Origin: a bacterium
GTDB lineage: Bacteria > SM23-31 > JAUVVT01
Reading direction: 5' to 3'
Length of the DNA: 17,377 nt
Assembly (NCBI GenBank): GCA_030616165.1
Contig: JAUWXV010000053.1
Location: 1 to 17,377, forward strand
Below the pieces are notes generated by a model. That model saw nothing but the letters and a program-made list of their open reading frames with translations, made no database searches and was not told where the DNA came from. Each line of letters opens with the position of its first letter. The stretch's first letter is position 1. Of the stretch, positions 2,979 through 17,377 are shown piece after piece. The translations under genes were made by a program, and so were the position numbers.

Positions 2979-4172
2979 TTACCCAAATTTTTTTACAAAG
3001 TCATCATACATATTATTTGGAATTAATAAACCCTTATACTTAGGATGTGGAATATGTGTGTCATTATATTCTTTTTTTAATTTTAACCAGCATTCTCCCA
3101 CTTCTGCAATCAATTTCGCTAAACTATCCGGTTTAGGTTCCGGAGAAACCTGAATTATGCTACTACTATTCACTGTGTTGCGCAGCCAATCGTAGACATT
3201 ACCGTACAATTCGGGATGAGGTGAAAGTATTGCGTCTGGTTCTTCATACCGTGCAGTCAGGTCTTTTTCTATATTCTCTTCTGTCGGCATCCTGTGTTCA
3301 TTTTTATATAAAGCATTAAAATGGACAGTCCATCTTGGAAACTTAATGTTTGAGTACGCCATGATATCATAATCAGCCGGCTTTTTATCCTTTCCGGATA
3401 CAACAACATGACCAGTGTCCATGTGGGCTATAACAGGTTTATTAGAATTTGCCTGTAAAATCGTCAGAAATCTTTTCATCTGTTCTATTGTACATGGTTC
3501 CATACCTGGCTGATACATTAGTTCAGATGATGAGGAAACTGTCTCCGATGAGTCCTGGAGCATAATTGCTAATTCTAAATTTTTAGCCTCGGAACCAGTT
3601 ATTTCTGTCGCCGGGTCAAGACCGGCAAGGTCCAAATCTTCTTTATAGATTAATGAAGCAAACTGACGCAATGTAATACTTTCAAATTGTTCCGGATGAA
3701 TCGTAGCAACTCTGTGTCCGTTAATCTTTGATATCCCAAGATATTCAGCAATCTTTAAAAAATTAAGGAAAAGCTGCCAATTTTTAGATTTATTTGATTC
3801 TGATCCATCAAAATACCCTCCACTTATCTGCATAACACTGTAAAAGTCAGCACCAGTCCCAATTGATAAATTTTTTATTCCCAAATTTTCCGAAAGAGAA
3901 AGAATCCTATCCGCAAGTTTATTAACCGGGTCTGGATTTTTATGGCAGTTTAAAACGGGCACTATTCCGAAAACATCCTCTGAAATTTCCGCCATTACAA
4001 GTTCATTCCGCTGATGAATAATATACAAATACTCTTCGAGATTATGAAGATTTAACAATGTATAATGATATGTATTGGGAGTGTATAAGATAATTGCAGG
4101 TTGATGTTTTTCTCTGGTATGGTCTATATGGAATTTTTCAAGTGTGTCGAAATCAAGTTCGAATACAGCCAT
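2979..4172 (-). CDS. Xylose-isomerase-like TIM-barrel protein, predicted sugar or sugar-phosphate isomerase/epimerase
   Basis: A 397-residue soluble protein without a signal peptide. I did not recognise a named enzyme. The layout of acidic and histidine motifs resembles metal-dependent sugar isomerases of the xylose-isomerase-like TIM-barrel superfamily: MEP with Glu225, MDTGH with Asp252 and His255, and VHFN with His284. This spacing is close to that of the metal ligands in L-rhamnose isomerases. The predicted role is aldose/ketose isomerisation or epimerisation, probably Mn- or Mg-dependent. It is the last gene of a three-gene operon, 6 bases after the SorE-like gene. No strong Shine-Dalgarno precedes the ATG, so translation is probably coupled to the upstream gene. 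The tight linkage says it acts in the same pathway as the reductase and the aldolase/dehydrogenase. The superfamily call is fairly safe; the substrate is unknown. Confidence 0.65.
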   Translation of the reverse strand: MAVFELDFDTLEKFHIDHTREKHQPAIILYTPNTYHYTLLNLHNLEEYLYIIHQRNELVMAEISEDVFGIVPVLNCHKNPDPVNKLADRILSLSENLGIKNLSIGTGADFYSVMQISGGYFDGSESNKSKNWQLFLNFLKIAEYLGISKINGHRVATIHPEQFESITLRQFASLIYKEDLDLAGLDPATEITGSEAKNLELAIMLQDSSETVSSSSELMYQPGMEPCTIEQMKRFLTILQANSNKPVIAHMDTGHVVVSGKDKKPADYDIMAYSNIKFPRWTVHFNALYKNEHRMPTEENIEKDLTARYEEPDAILSPHPELYGNVYDWLRNTVNSSSIIQVSPEPKPDSLAKLIAEVGECWLKLKKEYNDTHIPHPKYKGLLIPNNMYDDFVKKFG

Positions 4173-5486: not shown

Positions 5487-7517
5487 CTATTTAAGCATAA
5501 CTTGACCACCTGTTACTGGAATAGCCTGGCCCGTTTCATATTGCTGTTCAATGGCATATATTACCGCTTTGTTTATATCATTTAAACTAACACCTTTCCC
5601 CATTGGGCATTTTGATTTATAATACTTTTTCACATTTTCAATATTTTTTGCACCCGGAACCTTTCCTGCTTTAAAATATTGAACGAATAATCCTTTTCTA
5701 TGGTTTGACCACAAAGGTCCCTCGAAGTAATTTCCCGGACAAATCGCATTAACCTTGATTCCATGTTTTATAAACTCATAAGCAAAACTCTGTATAAGCC
5801 CTATACCCCCAAATTTACTGCCAGCATATAATGCATTTGCCGGACTTCCCTGCAGACCAGATTTTGAACTGATTAAAATGATGTCAGATTTATAATCACG
5901 ATTAAATGTACTTTGCCTTTTCATGATACTCACACTTTCCCTTACGACTTTGAAAAATGCCTGATAATTTACACGTGTCATCATATCCAACTGCTCGTCC
6001 GTCAAACTCTCTGTTATCCCAGAAATTAAAATACCAGCATTACTTACCAGAATGTCAATACCGCCGTATAATCTGATAGTCTTATCAATCATTTTTTTTA
6101 TTTCACCTGTGTTCGTTACATCGACCTTGATGGCAAATGCACTTCCTGAGCCATACTGTTCATTGAGGCTTTCAGCAACATTCTCCGCAGTTTTTAAATT
6201 TATATCTGCTACAATCACATAGGCACCTTCTTTTGCCAGACCTCTCGCTATACCTTCACCTATACCCTGTCCAGCTCCAGTTACAATTGCCACTCGATTC
6301 CGGATTCTGCCATTTGAAGATTCGCTAATTACTTTTCTTCTGTAACTTTCAACTTCCCATTTTTCTATGAAATCCGCCTTCGACTTCGTCATAAAGCGCG
6401 GACCACCAAAGACAGCGGTGTTTTCAGCAACTTTTATAAAATTTCTATATATAGCCAAAGCAATTTCCGCCTCTTTAAAACTATCCCCGATTGCCAGCAT
6501 ACCTGTTCCGTGAATAAAAACAATCTTCGGATCAACTTTATTAGTTCTTCTATATTGTGAAAGCCCTGCTTGAACTTTTTTTGCCAGAACATCACTAATG
6601 TCATTTTTTGCATAGGGATTAATCCACATGGATTTTTCTTTACAGTAAACCATATGGTCTGGTGAAAACGTCCCTTTCGTAACAATCTCTCTGCCATTTG
6701 CACTATAAATTACTTTTCGCACCTCTTTAGAATCATCAAAAATAATAATCTTTCTTATATCTGTACTTAAAAGCCCACGCAGCGTGGGGGATACGACATG
6801 TAATATAGAAGATATTTCTTTTTTTGATAATTTTTTATTCTCACCACGTACAAACACAGATTGAACACGATTCGAGTTTCTCTTAATATAATTATTTACT
6901 TTTGTCACTATATTTTTAGTATTAATGAGAATATCTTCAACTGTATCACCAGAGACAAATAATCCATGATTCTGGAGTAAAATTATTTTTGGAACCTTAC
7001 CTTGTTGTCTTTTTTTATAGTTTCGTAATTTTTTCTCTAAAACTTTCGTAAGGGTATAACCAGGATCAGTATAGTCAATCCATAGGTAATCGTTCCCAAA
7101 TAATTTATCAGCAATTTTTTCCCCATTTTTTCCGCACGTTAGCCCATTAACGAGATTAGGGTGGGTGTGAACTACAAATTTGTAATCTATAATCTCATGC
7201 AATCCAGTTTCCACAGAAGCTCTTGGACCACACGAGTTTGGCTTAAAATACAATCTTGCATCGAGTAAATCCTGTTTTACCTGCTCCTCTCTTTTAAACG
7301 GAGCGGGGTCATACTTTTTTTCTAATATTTTTCTTATTTTTTTTCTATCAATTGCAATAAATTCTTCCTTTTTAATCGCTGCTAAAGTCGTTCCACTCGG
7401 CTTAATATACAATATGTCACCACTTTTAACAGAAGTATTACCTCCACCTGCTAAAATAAAATCCGGATTCTTCCCAAAAAAATGGGATATTTTAAGCAAT
7501 TGATCTAAATCAGACAT
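5487..7517 (-). CDS. Bifunctional class II aldolase/adducin-family protein fused to SrlD-like short-chain dehydrogenase
   Basis: A 676-residue two-domain enzyme. The N-terminal aldolase domain (about 1-215) has GGGNTSVK (24-31), catalytic-type Glu103 and probable zinc ligands His117, His119 and His184 (HTHP and NHG). A connecting region runs to about 400. The C-terminal SDR domain (405-676) has the NAD motif TGAGQGIG (413-420), NAG (493-495), and catalytic Ser551, Tyr564 and Lys568. Its SKSG, KFGGIGL and TGGQVM motifs match my memory of sorbitol-6-phosphate 2-dehydrogenase (SrlD). The overall architecture and length match the YuxG/RhaEW group, in which a ketose-1-phosphate aldolase is joined to an aldehyde or alcohol dehydrogenase. 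It is first in the operon; the start has only a weak GAG ribosome binding site. Two readings remain: rhamnulose/fuculose-type aldolase plus lactaldehyde oxidation, or a hexitol-phosphate dehydrogenase with an aldolase partner. The neighbouring SorE-like gene favours the second. Confidence 0.8.
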   Translation of the reverse strand: MSDLDQLLKISHFFGKNPDFILAGGGNTSVKSGDILYIKPSGTTLAAIKKEEFIAIDRKKIRKILEKKYDPAPFKREEQVKQDLLDARLYFKPNSCGPRASVETGLHEIIDYKFVVHTHPNLVNGLTCGKNGEKIADKLFGNDYLWIDYTDPGYTLTKVLEKKLRNYKKRQQGKVPKIILLQNHGLFVSGDTVEDILINTKNIVTKVNNYIKRNSNRVQSVFVRGENKKLSKKEISSILHVVSPTLRGLLSTDIRKIIIFDDSKEVRKVIYSANGREIVTKGTFSPDHMVYCKEKSMWINPYAKNDISDVLAKKVQAGLSQYRRTNKVDPKIVFIHGTGMLAIGDSFKEAEIALAIYRNFIKVAENTAVFGGPRFMTKSKADFIEKWEVESYRRKVISESSNGRIRNRVAIVTGAGQGIGEGIARGLAKEGAYVIVADINLKTAENVAESLNEQYGSGSAFAIKVDVTNTGEIKKMIDKTIRLYGGIDILVSNAGILISGITESLTDEQLDMMTRVNYQAFFKVVRESVSIMKRQSTFNRDYKSDIILISSKSGLQGSPANALYAGSKFGGIGLIQSFAYEFIKHGIKVNAICPGNYFEGPLWSNHRKGLFVQYFKAGKVPGAKNIENVKKYYKSKCPMGKGVSLNDINKAVIYAIEQQYETGQAIPVTGGQVMLK

Positions 7518-7696: not shown

Positions 7697-9013
7697 TCAG
7701 TCGTAGTATTCTAATCCCAGATGGGTAATCAACTCTTCTCCCCGCAGATGCCTCAATGTATTTTTCAGTTTCATTAACTGAATAAATATATCATTTTCGG
7801 GATACAATTCTGGTGCACACATAGGAGCTTTAAAATAGAAAGATAGCCATTCCTGTATTCCCTTCATTCCCACTCTTTGAGAGAGGTCCATAAAGCGTGC
7901 TAAGTCAAGTACCAGAGGTGCAGCTAAAATACTATCTCTGCACAGAAAATTAACCTTTATTTGCATGGGATAACCCAACCAGCCAAAAATATCAATATTA
8001 TCCCAGCCTTCCTTACTGTCTCCACGCGGTGGATAATAATTAATCCGAATTTTATGATAGACATTGCTGTACAAGTCGGGATATTTATCCACCTGAAAAA
8101 TCTGGTCTAATACACCACCTTTTGAGACTTCTTTTGATTTGAATGATTCAGGGTCATCAAGGACTTCACCATCACGATTACCTAAAATATTCGTTGAAAA
8201 CCATCCTGTTAAACCGAGCAGTCTCGCCTTTATCCCCGGAGCCAGAAGTGTCTTCATAAAGGTTTGTCCGGTTTTATAATCTTTACCTGCGATTGGAACC
8301 TTTTTATCATTGGCAAAATCAATCATGGCAGGGATATCTACCGTCAGATTTGGAGCCCCATTAGCAAAAGGAACATTGCATGATATGGCAGCATAAGCAT
8401 ATATCTGGCTGGGGGCAATATCTGGTGAATTCTCTTTCAAGCCCTTTTCAAAAGTTTCAATTGACTGATGCACATGAGTGGGCTCACGGTAAACTTCAGT
8501 ACTGGCACACCAGACCATCACCATGCTTTCAACCTTTTTCGCCTCTTTAAAATTCTGAATATCTTCAATCAACTGCTGAGCAAGATCATATTTGTTTTCT
8601 CCTTTCTTTACATTCGGACCAGAAATCAATTTCACGTAATCATTGCTAAAAACTGCTTTCATTGGCTTTAAATCTTCCAGTTCCTCCCTTACCTGCTTCA
8701 ATAAATCCTCATTGAGGACTCCTGCTTTCAGAGCGGCTTCGTATGCATTATCCTCAAAAATATCCCAGCCTCCAAACTCAAGGTCTTTCAATTTTGCAAG
8801 GGGGACAAAATCTTTAATTTGCAGAACACGATTTTCAGTCCTTTTACCAAGACGGATAGTCCCTATCTCTGTAATTGAACCAATGGGTTTTGACAGCCCC
8901 TTTATTACTGCATGCACTCCAGCAACAAAAGTTGTGCTTACTGCACCTAAACCAGGCAATAATACACCTAATTTCCCTTTTGATTTCGGAATTTCAATTC
9001 CCTTTTGAATCAT
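7697..9013 (-). CDS. ino1: myo-Inositol-1-phosphate synthase (inositol-3-phosphate synthase)
   Basis: Converts D-glucose 6-phosphate to 1L-myo-inositol 1-phosphate in an NAD-dependent, redox-neutral cyclisation in the cytoplasm. It is the first step to inositol lipids, phosphorylated inositols or compatible solutes. Family motifs are clear: the Rossmann loop GLGAVSTT (21-28), AGKDYKTGQT (242-251), NILGNRDG (275-282), and the region WDNIDIFGWLGYPMQIKVNF (337-356) before DSILAAPLVLDL. At 438 residues it is a full-length bacterial form, longer than the roughly 360-residue actinobacterial type. A strong AAAGGAGG lies 5 bases before the ATG. The gene has its own terminator and lies 199 bases after the E1 gene, so it may be a separate unit or be read through from E1. 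Nothing here shows inositol catabolism or a PI synthase, so the product's fate is unknown. Confidence 0.93.
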   Translation of the reverse strand: MIQKGIEIPKSKGKLGVLLPGLGAVSTTFVAGVHAVIKGLSKPIGSITEIGTIRLGKRTENRVLQIKDFVPLAKLKDLEFGGWDIFEDNAYEAALKAGVLNEDLLKQVREELEDLKPMKAVFSNDYVKLISGPNVKKGENKYDLAQQLIEDIQNFKEAKKVESMVMVWCASTEVYREPTHVHQSIETFEKGLKENSPDIAPSQIYAYAAISCNVPFANGAPNLTVDIPAMIDFANDKKVPIAGKDYKTGQTFMKTLLAPGIKARLLGLTGWFSTNILGNRDGEVLDDPESFKSKEVSKGGVLDQIFQVDKYPDLYSNVYHKIRINYYPPRGDSKEGWDNIDIFGWLGYPMQIKVNFLCRDSILAAPLVLDLARFMDLSQRVGMKGIQEWLSFYFKAPMCAPELYPENDIFIQLMKLKNTLRHLRGEELITHLGLEYYD

Positions 9014-9212: not shown

Positions 9213-11495
9213 TCATTTTTTCTCCCAAGCCAATAGTTTCCGTGCTTCAGAAACGATTCGATCCACACTTGGAATGTTATCATCCTCGAGCGTCTGAGCC
9301 ATTGGTGGCGGAATGTTCCGTGCTCCTACTATTTTTGGGGGTACTTTCAGGTCTTTGAATACCCTCTGCTGAATCTCATACAGGATATGTTCCCCGAAAC
9401 ATCCAATCTCTGGAGCTTGCAGCACAACCATTACCCTTCCTGTCTTTTTGGCAGAGCGTGCTAATGCTTCAATGTCCAATGGGATAAGTGTGCAAGGGTC
9501 CAAAACCTCAACCGATACGCCATCCTCCCGACTCAGGACTTCCGCTGCAGCCAATGAAGTATTCACCAGATTCAGATAACTTATAATAGTAAGGTCATTT
9601 CCCTCCCTTCGGACACGGGCTTCTCCGAGGGGAATTAGATACTCCTCCTCTGGAACAACATCTTTTTCTGTGTAAAGTAGTTGATGTTCAATAAACACTA
9701 CAGGATTGTTATCCCTGATAGACATTTTCAGCATACCTTTCACGTCATAAGCGGTAGATGGAGCCACTACCTTTAGCCCTGGAAATTGAGTAACAACTGC
9801 TTCCAGGCTCTGGGAATGCTGACCAGCATATCCTTTCCCTCCTCCGATGGTAGTGCGGATGACAAGTGGAATTTCTGCTTTTCCTCCAAACATATAACGG
9901 GTTTTTGCAACCTGATTTCCTAATTGATCCAAAGCCAGTGGTATAAAATCTATATACATTATTTCAACTACTGGACGTAAGCCTGCCATTGCTGCTCCGC
10001 ACCCAGTTCCTACAATTGCCGCTTCAGAAATGGGAGCATTGAATACTCGTTCCCTGCCAAAAATCCCGAATAGACCAACAGTTGCCTGAAAAGCACCACC
10101 ATAATCAGCAACGTCTTCTCCATAAAGAACTACACGACTGTCTCGAAGCATCTCCTCCGTGAGAGCCTCCTGGACGGCATGTCTATACATGATTTTCCCT
10201 TCACCATCCCTATTTAGATGACGAGGTTGTTTTAAAATAGCAACATGACGAAACTTTTCAGGAATATTCGTTTCTACAGCATCTGAAAAGAGCCCATCGT
10301 ATATATGAATTGGCTTTGGGTCTTTCCCCTTGGCGGCTTTTTCTGAAGCAATATAGATTCGTTTCTTTATCTGTTGATACCGCTCTTCCATTTCATCAAC
10401 CGTAAGAAGAGCATTTTTCTGCATATCCCGCTCCAGTTTTGCAATGCAATCCAGCGACTTCCAAACTTCTTCCTCTTTGGCAGACCTGTATGTTGTACGG
10501 AGATCACTGAGAGAGTGCCCCATATACCGATACGTCATACATTCTAATAAAACAGGTCCATGCCCAGCCTTTATAGTAGCGACAGCCCTTTTCACTGCAT
10601 CATATACCGCCAGAACATCCATCCCATTTACCACTTCAGCGTGCATGTTGTCTTGAGCAACGCCTGCACCCCTACGTGCCAGAAAATCGACTCCCGTGAC
10701 TTCTCCAAAAGTCTGACCTGTCATTCCATACTGATTGTTTTCAATAATAAAAATGACCGGTAAACCCAATTTAAATTGTTTCTGGGCTGCAAAGTTCATA
10801 GCTTCAAGTGAAATTCCATTACAATTAGCGCCATCACCAACCAGAGAGGCTACTACTCTTCCTCGCTGGAGTTTTGATTCCGCTAATGCTGCTCCTGAGG
10901 CTATAGCAAAACTACCACCAACGATGGCATTCGCTCCCAGATGACCTACATTGAAATCGGCGATATGCATCCCTCCTCCCCTTCCACGACAATATCCTTC
11001 CTCTTTCCCGAATAATTCAGCAGCGGTTTTTAACAAATGTATATCAATAGCTTCGGGTAATAATTCTTCATGTGATTGGCAGGTATATTCTCTGCCGAGA
11101 AACTTGCATACCTCCTCAACAGACATTTTATAAAGCGCACAAAGCCCTTTGGCGATTGAATGTCCATGCCCCCGATGAGTGCTGGTAATATAATCGTCAG
11201 GCTTAAGATTCGCAATAACTCCAACAGCAACCGCCTCCTGACCAATAGAAAGGTGTGTAGCACCAACGAATTTGAATCCATCTACAGGTATAAACTTACC
11301 ACTTTTGAGTTCAACTATCATCTTCTCAAAAGACCTGATTGTTAGCATAGTTTCCAACATACGAAACACATCTTCTCTGGTAAGCCTCACTCCAAGTTCA
11401 TTTTTTAAAGTTCCCTGATACTGAAAACACGGGATAGGCTCAAAGGTTGCCTCCCTCGGCATAAAATCCGGTATAATATCTAATTCTTTAACCAT
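9213..11495 (-). CDS. Fused E1 alpha-beta subunit of a thiamine-diphosphate 2-oxo acid (or acetoin) dehydrogenase
   Basis: The E1 component decarboxylates a 2-oxo acid (or cleaves acetoin) on thiamine diphosphate and passes the acyl group to lipoyl-E2. Alpha and beta chains, usually two genes, are one 760-residue protein here. The alpha part (about 38-390) has HRGHGHSIAKG (107-117), GRGGGMH (171-177) and the cofactor motif GDG (220-222) to NN (253-254). The beta part (about 430-755) has GEDVADYGGAF (459-469), Glu491 in ISEAAIVG and His560 in GQHSQS. AAGGGA precedes the ATG. The alpha cofactor motif reads GDGANCNG rather than the usual GDGAANQG. No E2, E3 or lipoyl enzyme is in the window, so partners must lie elsewhere. 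The substrate (pyruvate, branched-chain 2-oxo acid or acetoin) cannot be decided. Its base composition is noticeably GC-richer than the flanking AT-rich genes. Confidence 0.88.
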   Translation of the reverse strand: MVKELDIIPDFMPREATFEPIPCFQYQGTLKNELGVRLTREDVFRMLETMLTIRSFEKMIVELKSGKFIPVDGFKFVGATHLSIGQEAVAVGVIANLKPDDYITSTHRGHGHSIAKGLCALYKMSVEEVCKFLGREYTCQSHEELLPEAIDIHLLKTAAELFGKEEGYCRGRGGGMHIADFNVGHLGANAIVGGSFAIASGAALAESKLQRGRVVASLVGDGANCNGISLEAMNFAAQKQFKLGLPVIFIIENNQYGMTGQTFGEVTGVDFLARRGAGVAQDNMHAEVVNGMDVLAVYDAVKRAVATIKAGHGPVLLECMTYRYMGHSLSDLRTTYRSAKEEEVWKSLDCIAKLERDMQKNALLTVDEMEERYQQIKKRIYIASEKAAKGKDPKPIHIYDGLFSDAVETNIPEKFRHVAILKQPRHLNRDGEGKIMYRHAVQEALTEEMLRDSRVVLYGEDVADYGGAFQATVGLFGIFGRERVFNAPISEAAIVGTGCGAAMAGLRPVVEIMYIDFIPLALDQLGNQVAKTRYMFGGKAEIPLVIRTTIGGGKGYAGQHSQSLEAVVTQFPGLKVVAPSTAYDVKGMLKMSIRDNNPVVFIEHQLLYTEKDVVPEEEYLIPLGEARVRREGNDLTIISYLNLVNTSLAAAEVLSREDGVSVEVLDPCTLIPLDIEALARSAKKTGRVMVVLQAPEIGCFGEHILYEIQQRVFKDLKVPPKIVGARNIPPPMAQTLEDDNIPSVDRIVSEARKLLAWEKK

Positions 11496-11967: not shown

Positions 11968-12062
11968 TGTCATTCTGAACCCCGTGCTGAACTTGATTCA
12001 GTATTGTTTCGGAATCTATCTTCGGATTTCATATTAGATCCTGAAACGAGTTCAAGATGACA
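11968..12062. repeat. Nested inverted-repeat element (two concentric stems)
   Basis: Outer arms TGTCATTCTGAAC (11968-11980) and GTTCAAGATGACA (12050-12062) are inverted copies with 2 differences in 13. Inner arms GTTTCGGAATCT (12006-12017) and AGATCCTGAAAC (12036-12047) are inverted copies with 2 differences in 12. The phrases 'GTCATTCTGAA' and 'GATCCTGAAACGAGTTCA' resemble dispersed intergenic repeats I associate with metagenome-assembled genomes. It is non-coding; an open frame across it on the minus strand has no support. It may be a small non-autonomous mobile element or a relic. Confidence 0.6.
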
Positions 12063-13637: not shown

Positions 13638-15713
13638 TTAATCATTATTATTCTTAAGAATTTTTTCAAAGTGTCTTACAAATTTATTTTGACTATCAGA
13701 ATATCTCCAATCGGGCAATTTTTCATTCATAATATTAAACAATTCTTTTGCCTTTTCCTTATTGCAGAGATTAATATAATGCTCTATAAGCTGGATAAAA
13801 ACATGCCTGAAATTATTGTATAATAATATAGTACCTTTATCTAACTGAATATCCGGGTTATTGAAATATCTAAATCTATATATTTGCACGAGATTCTTTT
13901 CAAGTGCTTCCGGTAAAATATCTTTTCCTTCTACAAGTAAAAGTTTGTTGACGATACCCACACAACTCAGGTAATTTTGTAATCCTATACGATTTTGCGG
14001 AGAAACTGTAGATGAAAAATAAACAGGCCTTTCCCATTTGTTTTCCCTTAAAAATGATAATAATACCCTATCCTGAATTAAAATTAAATTTTTATTGCGG
14101 GTTTTTCTGCCTTCATATGTAAAAATTAGCGAATCTTTTATCGAGTTATCAAAAGCAGGTGGAGGAATTTTAACTAATATCGGTTTATCCAGTGGAAAGG
14201 GAGAAAGTTTATCCGCGTTTATAATAGATGAACCAACAGGAAATGAGTAAGGTTCTTTAATGAGCCGTTCTAAATAAAACCGGGCATTCAGCAAGCTTAA
14301 ATTTGCCACACATATATCAGTGCGAAATCCTTCTACATTCTGTAAATACCATAACGGGTATGTGTCATTGTCTCCATTTGTAAATAATACTGCATCCTTT
14401 TCACAACCGCTTAAAATATTATATGCAAAATCAACAGGGAAATAATATTTGTTTCTATTGCATTTATCCCAGTTTGAGACAATAATGTTTAAAGGTAATA
14501 ATATAAAACTAATAATTGTTAATATATAAAGCGCAATCCTTTTGGCATTATCGGTATTTTTAAGTATCCCAAATATAATATTGTAGAAAAAGTAAATCCC
14601 TATTCCAATCCATATAGTGAATATATAGAAAGACGGTATAAAAAGCCTGTCTATTTCACGAATCCTGTGAAAACCGTCAACTACATTTGAGTAAAATATT
14701 AAAACTATCGAATAAAGGGTAAAAATAATTAATATAAGAATCCAGCTTTTAAAGTTCTTTATAATGTTGTAAAAAAACCCAAAAATCCCAAGAATTAATG
14801 GCATCCCTAATAAAATAGATATATGATATAAAGCATTTGGTTCTCCTTTGCCCAAAAAATTCCAGCCGAAATATCTAAGATACATAAATTTAATTTGATA
14901 ATCCCAGAGGGGAGCCCTTCTATTAAACAGGTTTAAAAAATTTGATTCTTTAATATACATTTCCATATTTATCCAGGATATCAATCCTTCCAAGGTACCT
15001 GTATTACCAACATCAGTTGGTAGATAATGCTGCGCACGGACCAGAAGATAAAGATGGATTGTCAAGCTTGTAAAATAAACTAAAACCATTACTCCCCAAA
15101 ATTTATAATTGAATAAATATTTTCTTAAAGGAAAAATGAGTAGAATAAGAATTACCGGAATAAATGGGGTATTCAATCGATGGGCAGAAAAATCGATTCC
15201 CATGATAAAAACGAGTAAGAGAAACAGCTTTACCTTTTTGCGTTCGTCATCTTCAAACCAGATTAAAACAGCACAGAGAAGAATAATACCTGTCAGTAAT
15301 AGTCCTAAAGTATATACCCTCGAAACATGTGCTTCAATCCAGATACTGTACAGAAAGGGAATAGACAAAGCGGTTATGAATGAAACAATATTCGCCCACT
15401 CATTTTTATGCGTTTGAAATTTGTTCAGAATAATCGACAGGGTATAATAAAAGCAAACAGCAGCAAAGGATGTTGATACAATGTTTACCAATGTTATTGC
15501 CTTTATTGCTGGAAGAAAGAAGAAAATAATTGTAAATAAACGACCAAGTAAAATATATAAAATCGATCCTCCGGGACTGGGAATACCCAAGTTGTAAGCC
15601 TTGGCAGCGTAATTGCCGCTGTCCCACCATCCGATAGATGGATGGGAGGTGTAAAGAAGAATTACAAAAGTTGAAGCAAATAGGATAATCGGAAAATATT
15701 TTTTAAAAGGCAT
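13638..15713 (-). CDS. DUF2723 (TMEM260-like) multi-pass membrane protein, predicted protein O-glycosyltransferase type
   Basis: A 691-residue integral membrane protein with many hydrophobic segments in roughly residues 1-430, then a soluble C-terminal part. The first loop carries the family signature WWDSGNYAAKAYNLGIPSPG, whose acidic residue parallels the catalytic Asp of GT-C mannosyltransferases. The C-terminal part has the typical TNGDNDTYPLWYLQ and NKWERPVYFSSTVS motifs and ends in a TPR-like helical stretch. The eukaryotic relative TMEM260 is an O-mannosyltransferase; the bacterial role is inferred. The usual HPPG after the signature is SPGG here. Start choice: an in-frame GTG at 15776 adds 21 residues, but its GAGGA abuts the start with no spacing. 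The ATG at 15713 leaves a normal short basic N-terminus before the first membrane segment, so I prefer it. Relation to the sugar genes is not evident. Confidence 0.85.
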   Translation of the reverse strand: MPFKKYFPIILFASTFVILLYTSHPSIGWWDSGNYAAKAYNLGIPSPGGSILYILLGRLFTIIFFFLPAIKAITLVNIVSTSFAAVCFYYTLSIILNKFQTHKNEWANIVSFITALSIPFLYSIWIEAHVSRVYTLGLLLTGIILLCAVLIWFEDDERKKVKLFLLLVFIMGIDFSAHRLNTPFIPVILILLIFPLRKYLFNYKFWGVMVLVYFTSLTIHLYLLVRAQHYLPTDVGNTGTLEGLISWINMEMYIKESNFLNLFNRRAPLWDYQIKFMYLRYFGWNFLGKGEPNALYHISILLGMPLILGIFGFFYNIIKNFKSWILILIIFTLYSIVLIFYSNVVDGFHRIREIDRLFIPSFYIFTIWIGIGIYFFYNIIFGILKNTDNAKRIALYILTIISFILLPLNIIVSNWDKCNRNKYYFPVDFAYNILSGCEKDAVLFTNGDNDTYPLWYLQNVEGFRTDICVANLSLLNARFYLERLIKEPYSFPVGSSIINADKLSPFPLDKPILVKIPPPAFDNSIKDSLIFTYEGRKTRNKNLILIQDRVLLSFLRENKWERPVYFSSTVSPQNRIGLQNYLSCVGIVNKLLLVEGKDILPEALEKNLVQIYRFRYFNNPDIQLDKGTILLYNNFRHVFIQLIEHYINLCNKEKAKELFNIMNEKLPDWRYSDSQNKFVRHFEKILKNNND

Positions 15714-15818
15714 GTTTACCCATTTATGATTAACATTATTTGTTATTATACAGACTGAAGGGAAAAAAGGATTCACTCCTCACGAATCAAAAATGATAAG
15801 ATTAATAACTGTAGATTG

Positions 15819-16011: not shown

Positions 16012-16220
16012 TGAATATTTTCTCCTGCCATACAAATTCTTACAGTTTTAGTATGAATTTGTTTTATTGGCAATATTGGTGAGAATATAATATAGATATG
16101 TGAGTATAGCAGTCATACACATTTGGTTTAAATTTTAAAGTTTTTATTTTTTACTTGACTTTTTTTAACCATTAAATAATTTAAATTGATTTAAAAATGA
16201 TAAAATTATATGTTGATAAG

Positions 16221-16392
16221 ATGTGGATAAGTTTTTATAAAAAAATCCAACCATTGTAATTATTATACTTTCAATTTCCTGAATATTGAAATTTGTGTAC
16301 AAAATTGTGAATAAAATTTTTAATAGTTTGTTTATTCACCGTTTAGTTATATCTGATTAAATAATCAAAAATGTGGATAAGTTTTTATAAAA
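16221..16392 (+). repeat. Direct repeat of 22 bases containing the perfect DnaA boxes
   Basis: An identical 22-base sequence occurs at 16221-16242 and 16371-16392, 150 bases apart. It consists of the DnaA box followed by GTTTTTATAAAA. The conserved flank beyond the 9-base box suggests that more than the box itself is maintained, for example an adjacent unwinding or single-strand DnaA-binding sequence. Confidence 0.7.
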
Positions 16393-16603
16393 TTCATGTG
16401 GGAAAAATTTATCAAAATTTATTTTAGAAGATATTTGTTAATTTAGATAAGTTCTTGTTAAAAATATATTTTTAGCCTTTAAATACTCCAAAAACAGAAA
16501 ATACGTCAATCATAATAAGGTTTATCAACTTATAAATGTATAATCGAAAGTTTTGGTGGTGAAATTAATCTAAAAAACAAGATTAAGGGAAAAGTGCAAG
16601 TTG

Positions 16604-16609
16604 TATAAT
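16604..16609 (+). promoter_or_regulatory. Predicted -10 element of the signalling gene
   Basis: A perfect TATAAT (16604-16609) lies about 38 bases before the ATG at 16647, with no good -35 at 16-18 bases. The start itself is preceded by GAGGTG at good spacing (16635-16640). The promoter would sit at the right edge of the DnaA-box cluster and overlap its last weak box. Confidence 0.35.
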
Positions 16610-16646
16610 AAATTATCCAATTCCTAAATAATATGAGGTGTAATTT

Positions 16647-17377
16647 ATGGAAAAAGAGAGCATACTCATAGTTGAGGATGACAGGCAAGAGTTATCGAGT
16701 TTTGAAAAAACATTATCCAAAGAGGATTATAATATTACAGCAGTAGATAACATAGAAAAGGCTTTGAAATTGATAAAGGAGAATAAATATAATTTAATAC
16801 TGATAGATATAGTAATGAAAAGAATTAATGGAATACAAATTTTTGAGGAAACTAAAAAGATTTCTCCTGAAACAGAAGTAATTCTAATTTTAGAATATGG
16901 ATCAGCCGACATATCATTTAATATATTGAGAAAAGATGCCATTGACTTTATAGTTAAACCCTATGATAAAGATGAATTAAGAATAAGAATTAAACACGCA
17001 CTTGAAAAACAAAAATTGGGAAAGGAATCTTTGAAAGATGAAATATATAAAAAAATGTCAGAAACATTAGGAGCAATTGCCCACGAAATAAATAATCCGT
17101 TAACAGTAATACTCGGCAATGCTGAATTGCTGCTTTATGATTTATCAAATGACAATCCGATATATGAACAGATAAAAGCAATTGAATATTCTGCGGTAAG
17201 AATTGCTGAAATCACAGAAAAAATGAGGAAAGTGAGAGGAATTGAAATAAAAAAATATACAAAAGATTCAAAAATAATTGATATTCAAAAAAGCAGTAAA
17301 TTCGAAAAACCTGAAGAAAAAGCAGTTTTGATAGTCGATGATGAAGAATCAATAACAAGTCTATATTCAATGGTTCT
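16647..17377 (+). CDS. REC-HisKA-REC two-component signalling protein (3' end beyond window)
   Basis: The first 243 codons are open and run off the window. Residues 5-118 form a receiver domain: acidic Glu10-Asp11-Asp12, phospho-acceptor Asp54 in LILIDIVM, and Lys104 in VKPYD. The usual switch Thr/Ser is replaced by Leu (ILILEYGS, Leu82). Residues about 135-198 form a HisKA dimerisation/phosphotransfer domain with the H-box AIAHEINNPLTVILGNAELL and phosphorylatable His146. A second receiver starts at about 224 (VLIVDDEES, Asp231-Asp232) only ~25 residues later. There is no room for the HATPase_c ATP-binding domain of a normal kinase between HisKA and REC2. It therefore looks like a phosphorelay hub, or it gains a catalytic domain after the window end. 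ATG is preceded by GAGGTG. It is the only rightward gene here. Confidence 0.85.
   Translation, partial: MEKESILIVEDDRQELSSFEKTLSKEDYNITAVDNIEKALKLIKENKYNLILIDIVMKRINGIQIFEETKKISPETEVILILEYGSADISFNILRKDAIDFIVKPYDKDELRIRIKHALEKQKLGKESLKDEIYKKMSETLGAIAHEINNPLTVILGNAELLLYDLSNDNPIYEQIKAIEYSAVRIAEITEKMRKVRGIEIKKYTKDSKIIDIQKSSKFEKPEEKAVLIVDDEESITSLYSMV

Follow-up and report, generated by a model that had tools for sequence, protein, structure and literature searches.

A dense cluster of DnaA boxes in the draft genome G000 appears to be a duplicate of the dnaA control region that selection has kept intact in front of a signalling gene, and may act either as a DnaA-controlled switch or as an extra or relocated origin of replication. 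The window, i.e. the whole stretch of DNA that was analysed, is the entire contig C121 (17,377 bp) of this 3.74 Mb draft, which consists of 343 contigs and is 90 % complete and 1.6 % contaminated. dnaA was found once in the genome, on contig C165. In a named collection, the DnaA proteins closest to its product come from two unclassified MAGs, at 59 and 54 % identity; a Latescibacterota MAG follows at 51 % and Calditrichia MAGs at 46 %. The genomes for comparison included one family member (G001) and four members of the same class.

The DnaA-box cluster

The first-pass annotation had described two perfect DnaA boxes and several variants at this site. The dense cluster was confirmed with one perfect box more, i.e. 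three perfect TTATNCACA boxes and three with one mismatch lie within 170 bp (16211–16380; Table 1), and so was the reported spacing of one helical turn, the boxes at 16211 and 16222 being 11 bp apart. The 411-bp stretch contains three perfect boxes and six with at most one mismatch, compared to simulated means of 0.05 and 1.0, respectively, and neither observed value was reached in any of 2000 Markov simulations of the local sequence.

In a scan for the full box covering 1.26 Mb (105 contigs, 34 % of the genome), the cluster of the window and one on C165 were by far the two strongest. Throughout the whole genome, TTATCCACA occurs at 64 sites, with pairs less than 1 kb apart at these two places only, and the 11-bp doublet pattern is found only at the window site and upstream of dnaA. 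It is on these TTATCCACA sites and the doublet pattern that uniqueness in the whole genome is based, as TTATNCACA itself has at least 100 places. The site also has the three or more DnaA boxes in an AT-rich intergenic region by which origins are recognized. The AT content of the module is 82 %, at which chance matches to the DnaA-trio/BUS unwinding pattern (.A.){3,} (PMC8287927) arise too easily.

Table 1. Features of the DnaA-box module and its flanks in the window
Feature	Position	Strand	Remarks
TMEM260-like (PF11028) membrane protein gene	13638–15776	-	Leftward neighbour
Duplicated dnaA-upstream module	16147–16453	+	75–77 % identical to G000:C165:7179–7483 (minus strand), blastn E 2e-52
Promoter-like pair TTGACT – 16 nt – TAATTT	16155–16182	+	Common to the dnaA copy; CTTGACTTTT invariant in all three sequences
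DnaA-box doublet	16211–16230	-	TTATCAACA (16211–16219, 1 mismatch) and TTATCCACA (16222–16230, perfect), 11 bp apart
Near DnaA box TTGTACACA	16294–16302	-	1 mismatch
Perfect box TTATTCACA (matches TTATNCACA)	16306–16314	-	TTATTCACA of the dnaA copy 12 bp away in the alignment
Near DnaA box TTATTCACC	16332–16340	+	1 mismatch
Distal perfect DnaA box TTATCCACA	16372–16380	-	Kept in the dnaA copy
Histidine-kinase gene, decayed 3' end	16465–16628	+	75 % identical to C272:13080–13241; relic protein SFGGEINLKNKIKGK, stops upstream
Response-regulator/HisKA protein gene, cut by contig end	16647–17375	+	Response_reg 8e-23, HisKA 2e-10

Paralogy with the dnaA upstream region

When the right end of the window was searched against the whole genome, it matched C165:7179–7483 on the minus strand (75 % identity, E 8e-52; 2e-52 in direct comparison), i.e. 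the intergenic region directly upstream of dnaA (C165:5694–7028, minus strand). The homology starts about 8 bp upstream of the TTGACT hexamer (-35, 16155) and ends near 16453, and in the dnaA copy the ATG lies about 150 bp past the end of the homologous block. On its other side, the C165 module is flanked by a divergent gene for an MFS-type transporter, so called on the basis of its sequence without a family search. Promoter, 11-bp doublet and distal box are all retained in the window copy and oriented as in the dnaA copy; homology to the dnaA upstream region thus includes promoter and boxes, but dnaA does not follow. A richer box cluster beside dnaA had been named in the first-pass annotation as a finding that would refute an origin here; the sister cluster on C165, with three perfect and three near boxes, is equal rather than richer. 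Since the longest exact run shared by the two copies is 18 bp, they are diverged paralogues and not an assembly repeat. Further blastn matches of the module, beyond C121 and C165, were short and AT-rich, and those inspected lacked a comparable box cluster.

The three-way alignment of the window copy, the C165 copy and the G001 sequence shows a doublet core conserved in all three, and star-tree branch lengths of 0.164 (window), 0.134 (C165) and 0.326 (G001). The 12-bp shift of the perfect TTATTCACA between the module copies is read here as box turnover. The generic promoter scan did not list the TTGACT/TAATTT pair and gave no excess over shuffles, so that the promoter is called from conservation only.

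The dnaA neighbourhood of G001 is that of G000, with sigma-factor-like and anti-sigma-like genes, dnaA, the module and the MFS-type gene, and with boxes at matching positions. This shared arrangement identifies the dnaA site as the ancestral home of the module and the window site as the derived one. When a module position beside the TMEM260-like gene was sought in the relatives, only distant homologues turned up (best 35 %).

Flanking genes and the junction

The coding-strand switch reported at the cluster is real as a change from leftward to rightward genes, although eight long leftward ORFs precede it, not seven, and dnaA and dnaN are indeed both missing from the window. The neighbours are the TMEM260-like and response-regulator genes; with the contig ending 1 kb rightward, no origin indicator gene (dnaA, dnaN, rpmH, gidA or similar) is adjacent, and no plasmid or chromid initiator or partition gene was found among the nine window proteins scanned.

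The response-regulator gene, which is intact up to the contig end, has the same orientation to the module as dnaA has on C165, with the kinase relic in between, and its paralogue at C192:9203–9874 still follows an intact histidine kinase. Considering that the relic and the regulator gene stand where dnaA would follow, the module must have replaced, or have been inserted into, the front of a kinase–regulator pair, in its dnaA orientation.

The remainder of the window holds two fused-enzyme genes, i.e. a class II aldolase and a short-chain dehydrogenase in one chain (5490–7517) and the E1 alpha and beta parts of a 2-oxoacid dehydrogenase in another (9216–11495), both in a leftward cluster with myo-inositol-1-phosphate synthase (7700–9013). 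A 397-aa protein without a Pfam match at 1e-5 (2982–4172) is encoded within an otherwise readable sugar-related cluster. Between the E1 and LacI-type regulator genes, positions 11970–12018 are 88–93 % identical to C272 12267–12315 and 12347–12388, and possibly represent an interspersed repeat.

Constraint on the window copy

Module identity is 68 % between C165 and G001 and 66 % between the window and G001, with 35 % expected at random. For thirteen genes common to G000 and G001, identity at fourfold sites is 39 % (saturation 29 %), and the module changes at 0.32 times the rate of these sites. Unique changes number 28 in the window copy and 24 in the dnaA copy, i.e. 28 of the 52 fall on the window branch, where a neutral window copy predicts about 76 % of the post-duplication changes (P 5e-4). 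This test, which assumes no gene conversion between the copies and neutral change at fourfold sites, becomes weaker at a true ratio of only 2.5 (P 0.005) or 2 (P 0.04). Since evolution of the window copy has not outpaced that of the dnaA copy, the former is probably under selection rather than a fossil, bearing in mind that the fourfold sites are near saturation.

The columns of the doublet and the distal box, which were chosen after seeing the alignment, are more conserved than the rest (25/27 vs 154/279, P 7e-5); with all six boxes pooled, P is 0.03. Conservation spans the whole 300 bp of the module. As far as the alignments go, the window copy is most likely a working DnaA-binding module.

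GC skew and the position of the origin

The GC skew of the 17-kb window is negative to about 15 kb and positive thereafter, and a recount of 16681–16800 gave the G:C ratio of 21:11 reported earlier. As a draft in 343 contigs yields no whole-replicon skew curve, local skew was taken from coding-strand third positions, which track the replication strand in G000, i.e. the correlation is +0.58 between adjacent genes on the same strand and -0.27 between neighbours on opposite strands. Plus-strand skew at the window changes from about -0.25 (genes to 13.5 kb) to +0.23 (52 informative third positions on the right side), which is a weakly origin-like polarity. The step at 16.2 kb ranks 34th among 663 gene boundaries sampled, and the adjacent leftward 2-kb gene (13641–15713) has a third-position skew of -0.01.

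On C165, coding skew is +0.30 for the plus-strand genes to the left of the module, opposite in sign to what an origin at that place would give, and there is no skew switch at the dnaA locus of G001. In a more distant relative with dnaA-dnaN-gyrB order (L024), the skew of plus-strand genes goes from -0.13 to +0.20 across the dnaA upstream region, which suggests that the module was, probably, ancestrally an origin.

In this family dnaA lies apart from dnaN and rnpA, which are found on C151 and C289 of G000. The classic sites rpmH-rnpA (C289) and mnmG-gyrB-dnaN (C151) showed no box cluster, with 121 bp seen upstream of dnaN, where one imperfect DnaA box, GGTGGATAA, lies at the contig end. Both family members have the dnaN-DUF721-gyrB-mnmE-mnmG-rsmG-mfd block broken off within dnaN or immediately upstream of it (L154:13900–14122, i.e. 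the right end of G000:C151, and the right end of L157, i.e. G001:C4), and no end overlap joining C121 to the dnaN contig was found. Because the dnaN upstream region is cut off in both G000 and G001, it is a third candidate for the true origin beside the window and dnaA sites. oriC is not always near dnaA, and an indicator gene is no absolute requirement (PMC10225481). Regarding the candidate replication origin of the first-pass annotation, the sequence supports well a DnaA-binding cluster with origin-like architecture, but not that it is the origin of the chromosome.

Second modules in Calditrichia

The doublet pattern was found in 22 of 40 Calditrichia genomes, the reversed pattern in one of the 40. 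Of the doublet loci examined, eighteen are linked to dnaA. Another seven, each in a different genome, have as neighbour a symporter-like gene, identified as such from its sequence, and two are in a third shared neighbourhood. The geometry at the symporter-linked loci (L113, L114, L274, L278, L283, L285 and L298 of G064, G063, G066, G071, G081, G083 and G080, respectively) is nearly that of the dnaA module, i.e. an 11-bp doublet and a box about 160–210 bp away, and several Calditrichia genomes have one dnaA-linked and one unlinked module. With seven genomes carrying a dnaA-unlinked module, second modules thus recur. L276 and L280 (G068:C72 and G078:C81) share a further neighbourhood with the same doublet and distal-box geometry.

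The TTGAC promoter is absent from the unlinked Calditrichia modules. Therefore, these are not simply copies of a dnaA promoter, and modules of this geometry can serve a function other than driving a gene. Local GC3 skew at the Calditrichia dnaA loci was uninformative. The symporter-linked module is a candidate for the true oriC, or for a titration site, of Calditrichia.

Possible roles of the window copy

The explanation we favour, although its chance falls somewhat short of even, is that a DnaA-bound regulatory module was captured by the response regulator as a DnaA-controlled promoter. It brings together the observed duplication, conserved elements, same orientation, slow evolution and loss of the kinase. 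A block with the dnaA promoter and DnaA boxes would have been duplicated to a place ahead of a two-component gene pair, whose kinase gene would then have decayed, and the response regulator would now occupy the place of dnaA relative to the module. DnaA would most likely bind the doublet just downstream of the promoter as well as the distal boxes, so that the regulator may be transcribed under DnaA control and in step with dnaA, and some of the DnaA pool would be bound there as well. Three points speak against a captured promoter: its match was weak in the generic scan, conservation over 300 bp exceeds what a promoter would need and would fit an origin equally well, and the unlinked Calditrichia modules of this geometry do without the dnaA-type promoter.

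It is less probable, though still a serious candidate, that replication of the chromosome starts at the window copy, either as an oriC relocated from dnaA or as one of two origins, with the dnaA copy now only autoregulating dnaA. A full origin-like module with 82 % AT and three perfect boxes is what this predicts; the skew polarity of the window fits, as do the wrong sign on C165 and the missing switch at the G001 dnaA locus, and the L024 switch suggests an ancestral origin function. However, the skew step is not outstanding in rank, the adjacent leftward gene is neutral in skew, few third positions inform the right side, no replication gene is nearby, and another candidate may sit in the cut-off region upstream of dnaN on C151. 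The variant in which the dnaA and window sites are two homologous DnaA-dependent origins, both under selection, which would be a natural case of origin duplication or else a relocation in progress, has a slim chance; in a wider form, a dnaA-unlinked second module may be regular in Calditrichia and the lineage of the window. We consider equally doubtful a DnaA-titration or -recycling site of the datA/DARS type, without promoter or origin output: dense and apparently constrained DnaA sites far from dnaA, and the recurrent modules beside the Calditrichia symporter gene, are in its favour, but pure titration gives no reason for the kept promoter elements and the dnaA-like orientation. Finally, a draft in this many contigs might include one from a related co-binned organism, or a misjoin, but this is the least probable explanation, at a very low chance. 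In its tetranucleotide profile the contig lies near the centre of the bin (distance quantile 0.13 of 68 contigs), its GC content is 0.344 vs 0.350 for the bin, paralogues of the kinase and regulator genes are in the same bin, contamination is low, and dnaA is single. Exact matches to the four other loci in the comparison are 13–22 bp at their longest, too short for a k-mer misjoin, and the module cannot merely be the dnaA locus of another strain, since dnaA is missing behind it.

Comparison with known systems

How origins come to leave dnaA is an open question, as is whether one bacterial chromosome can maintain two of them; a second-site paralogue of the dnaA upstream region that is under constraint offers a concrete and testable case. 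If the promoter was indeed captured, a signalling protein would be under the replication initiator, and a two-component pathway linked to the cell cycle.

The module resembles the dnaA-upstream oriC/dnaA promoter of the rpmH-oriC-dnaA type (DoriC) in its doublet, distal box, AT-rich spacer and promoter, and is homologous to G000's own dnaA upstream region, but it is not beside dnaA, dnaN, rpmH or gyrB and is followed by a response regulator. Like datA and DARS of Escherichia coli (PMC4585315), to which it is likened by description and not by sequence, it is a DnaA-box cluster outside oriC, but one with a dnaA-type promoter. Bacterial double origins are treated as rare and unproven, and evidence for a chromosome with two functional origins was lacking according to Gao (2015; PMC4403523), whose duplicated cases carry dnaA copies and whose separated ones adjoin parB or hemE. 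G000 shares with these putative double origins the presence of two DnaA-box clusters, one at dnaA and one elsewhere, but the cluster of the window is a demonstrable paralogue of the dnaA cluster, without dnaA.
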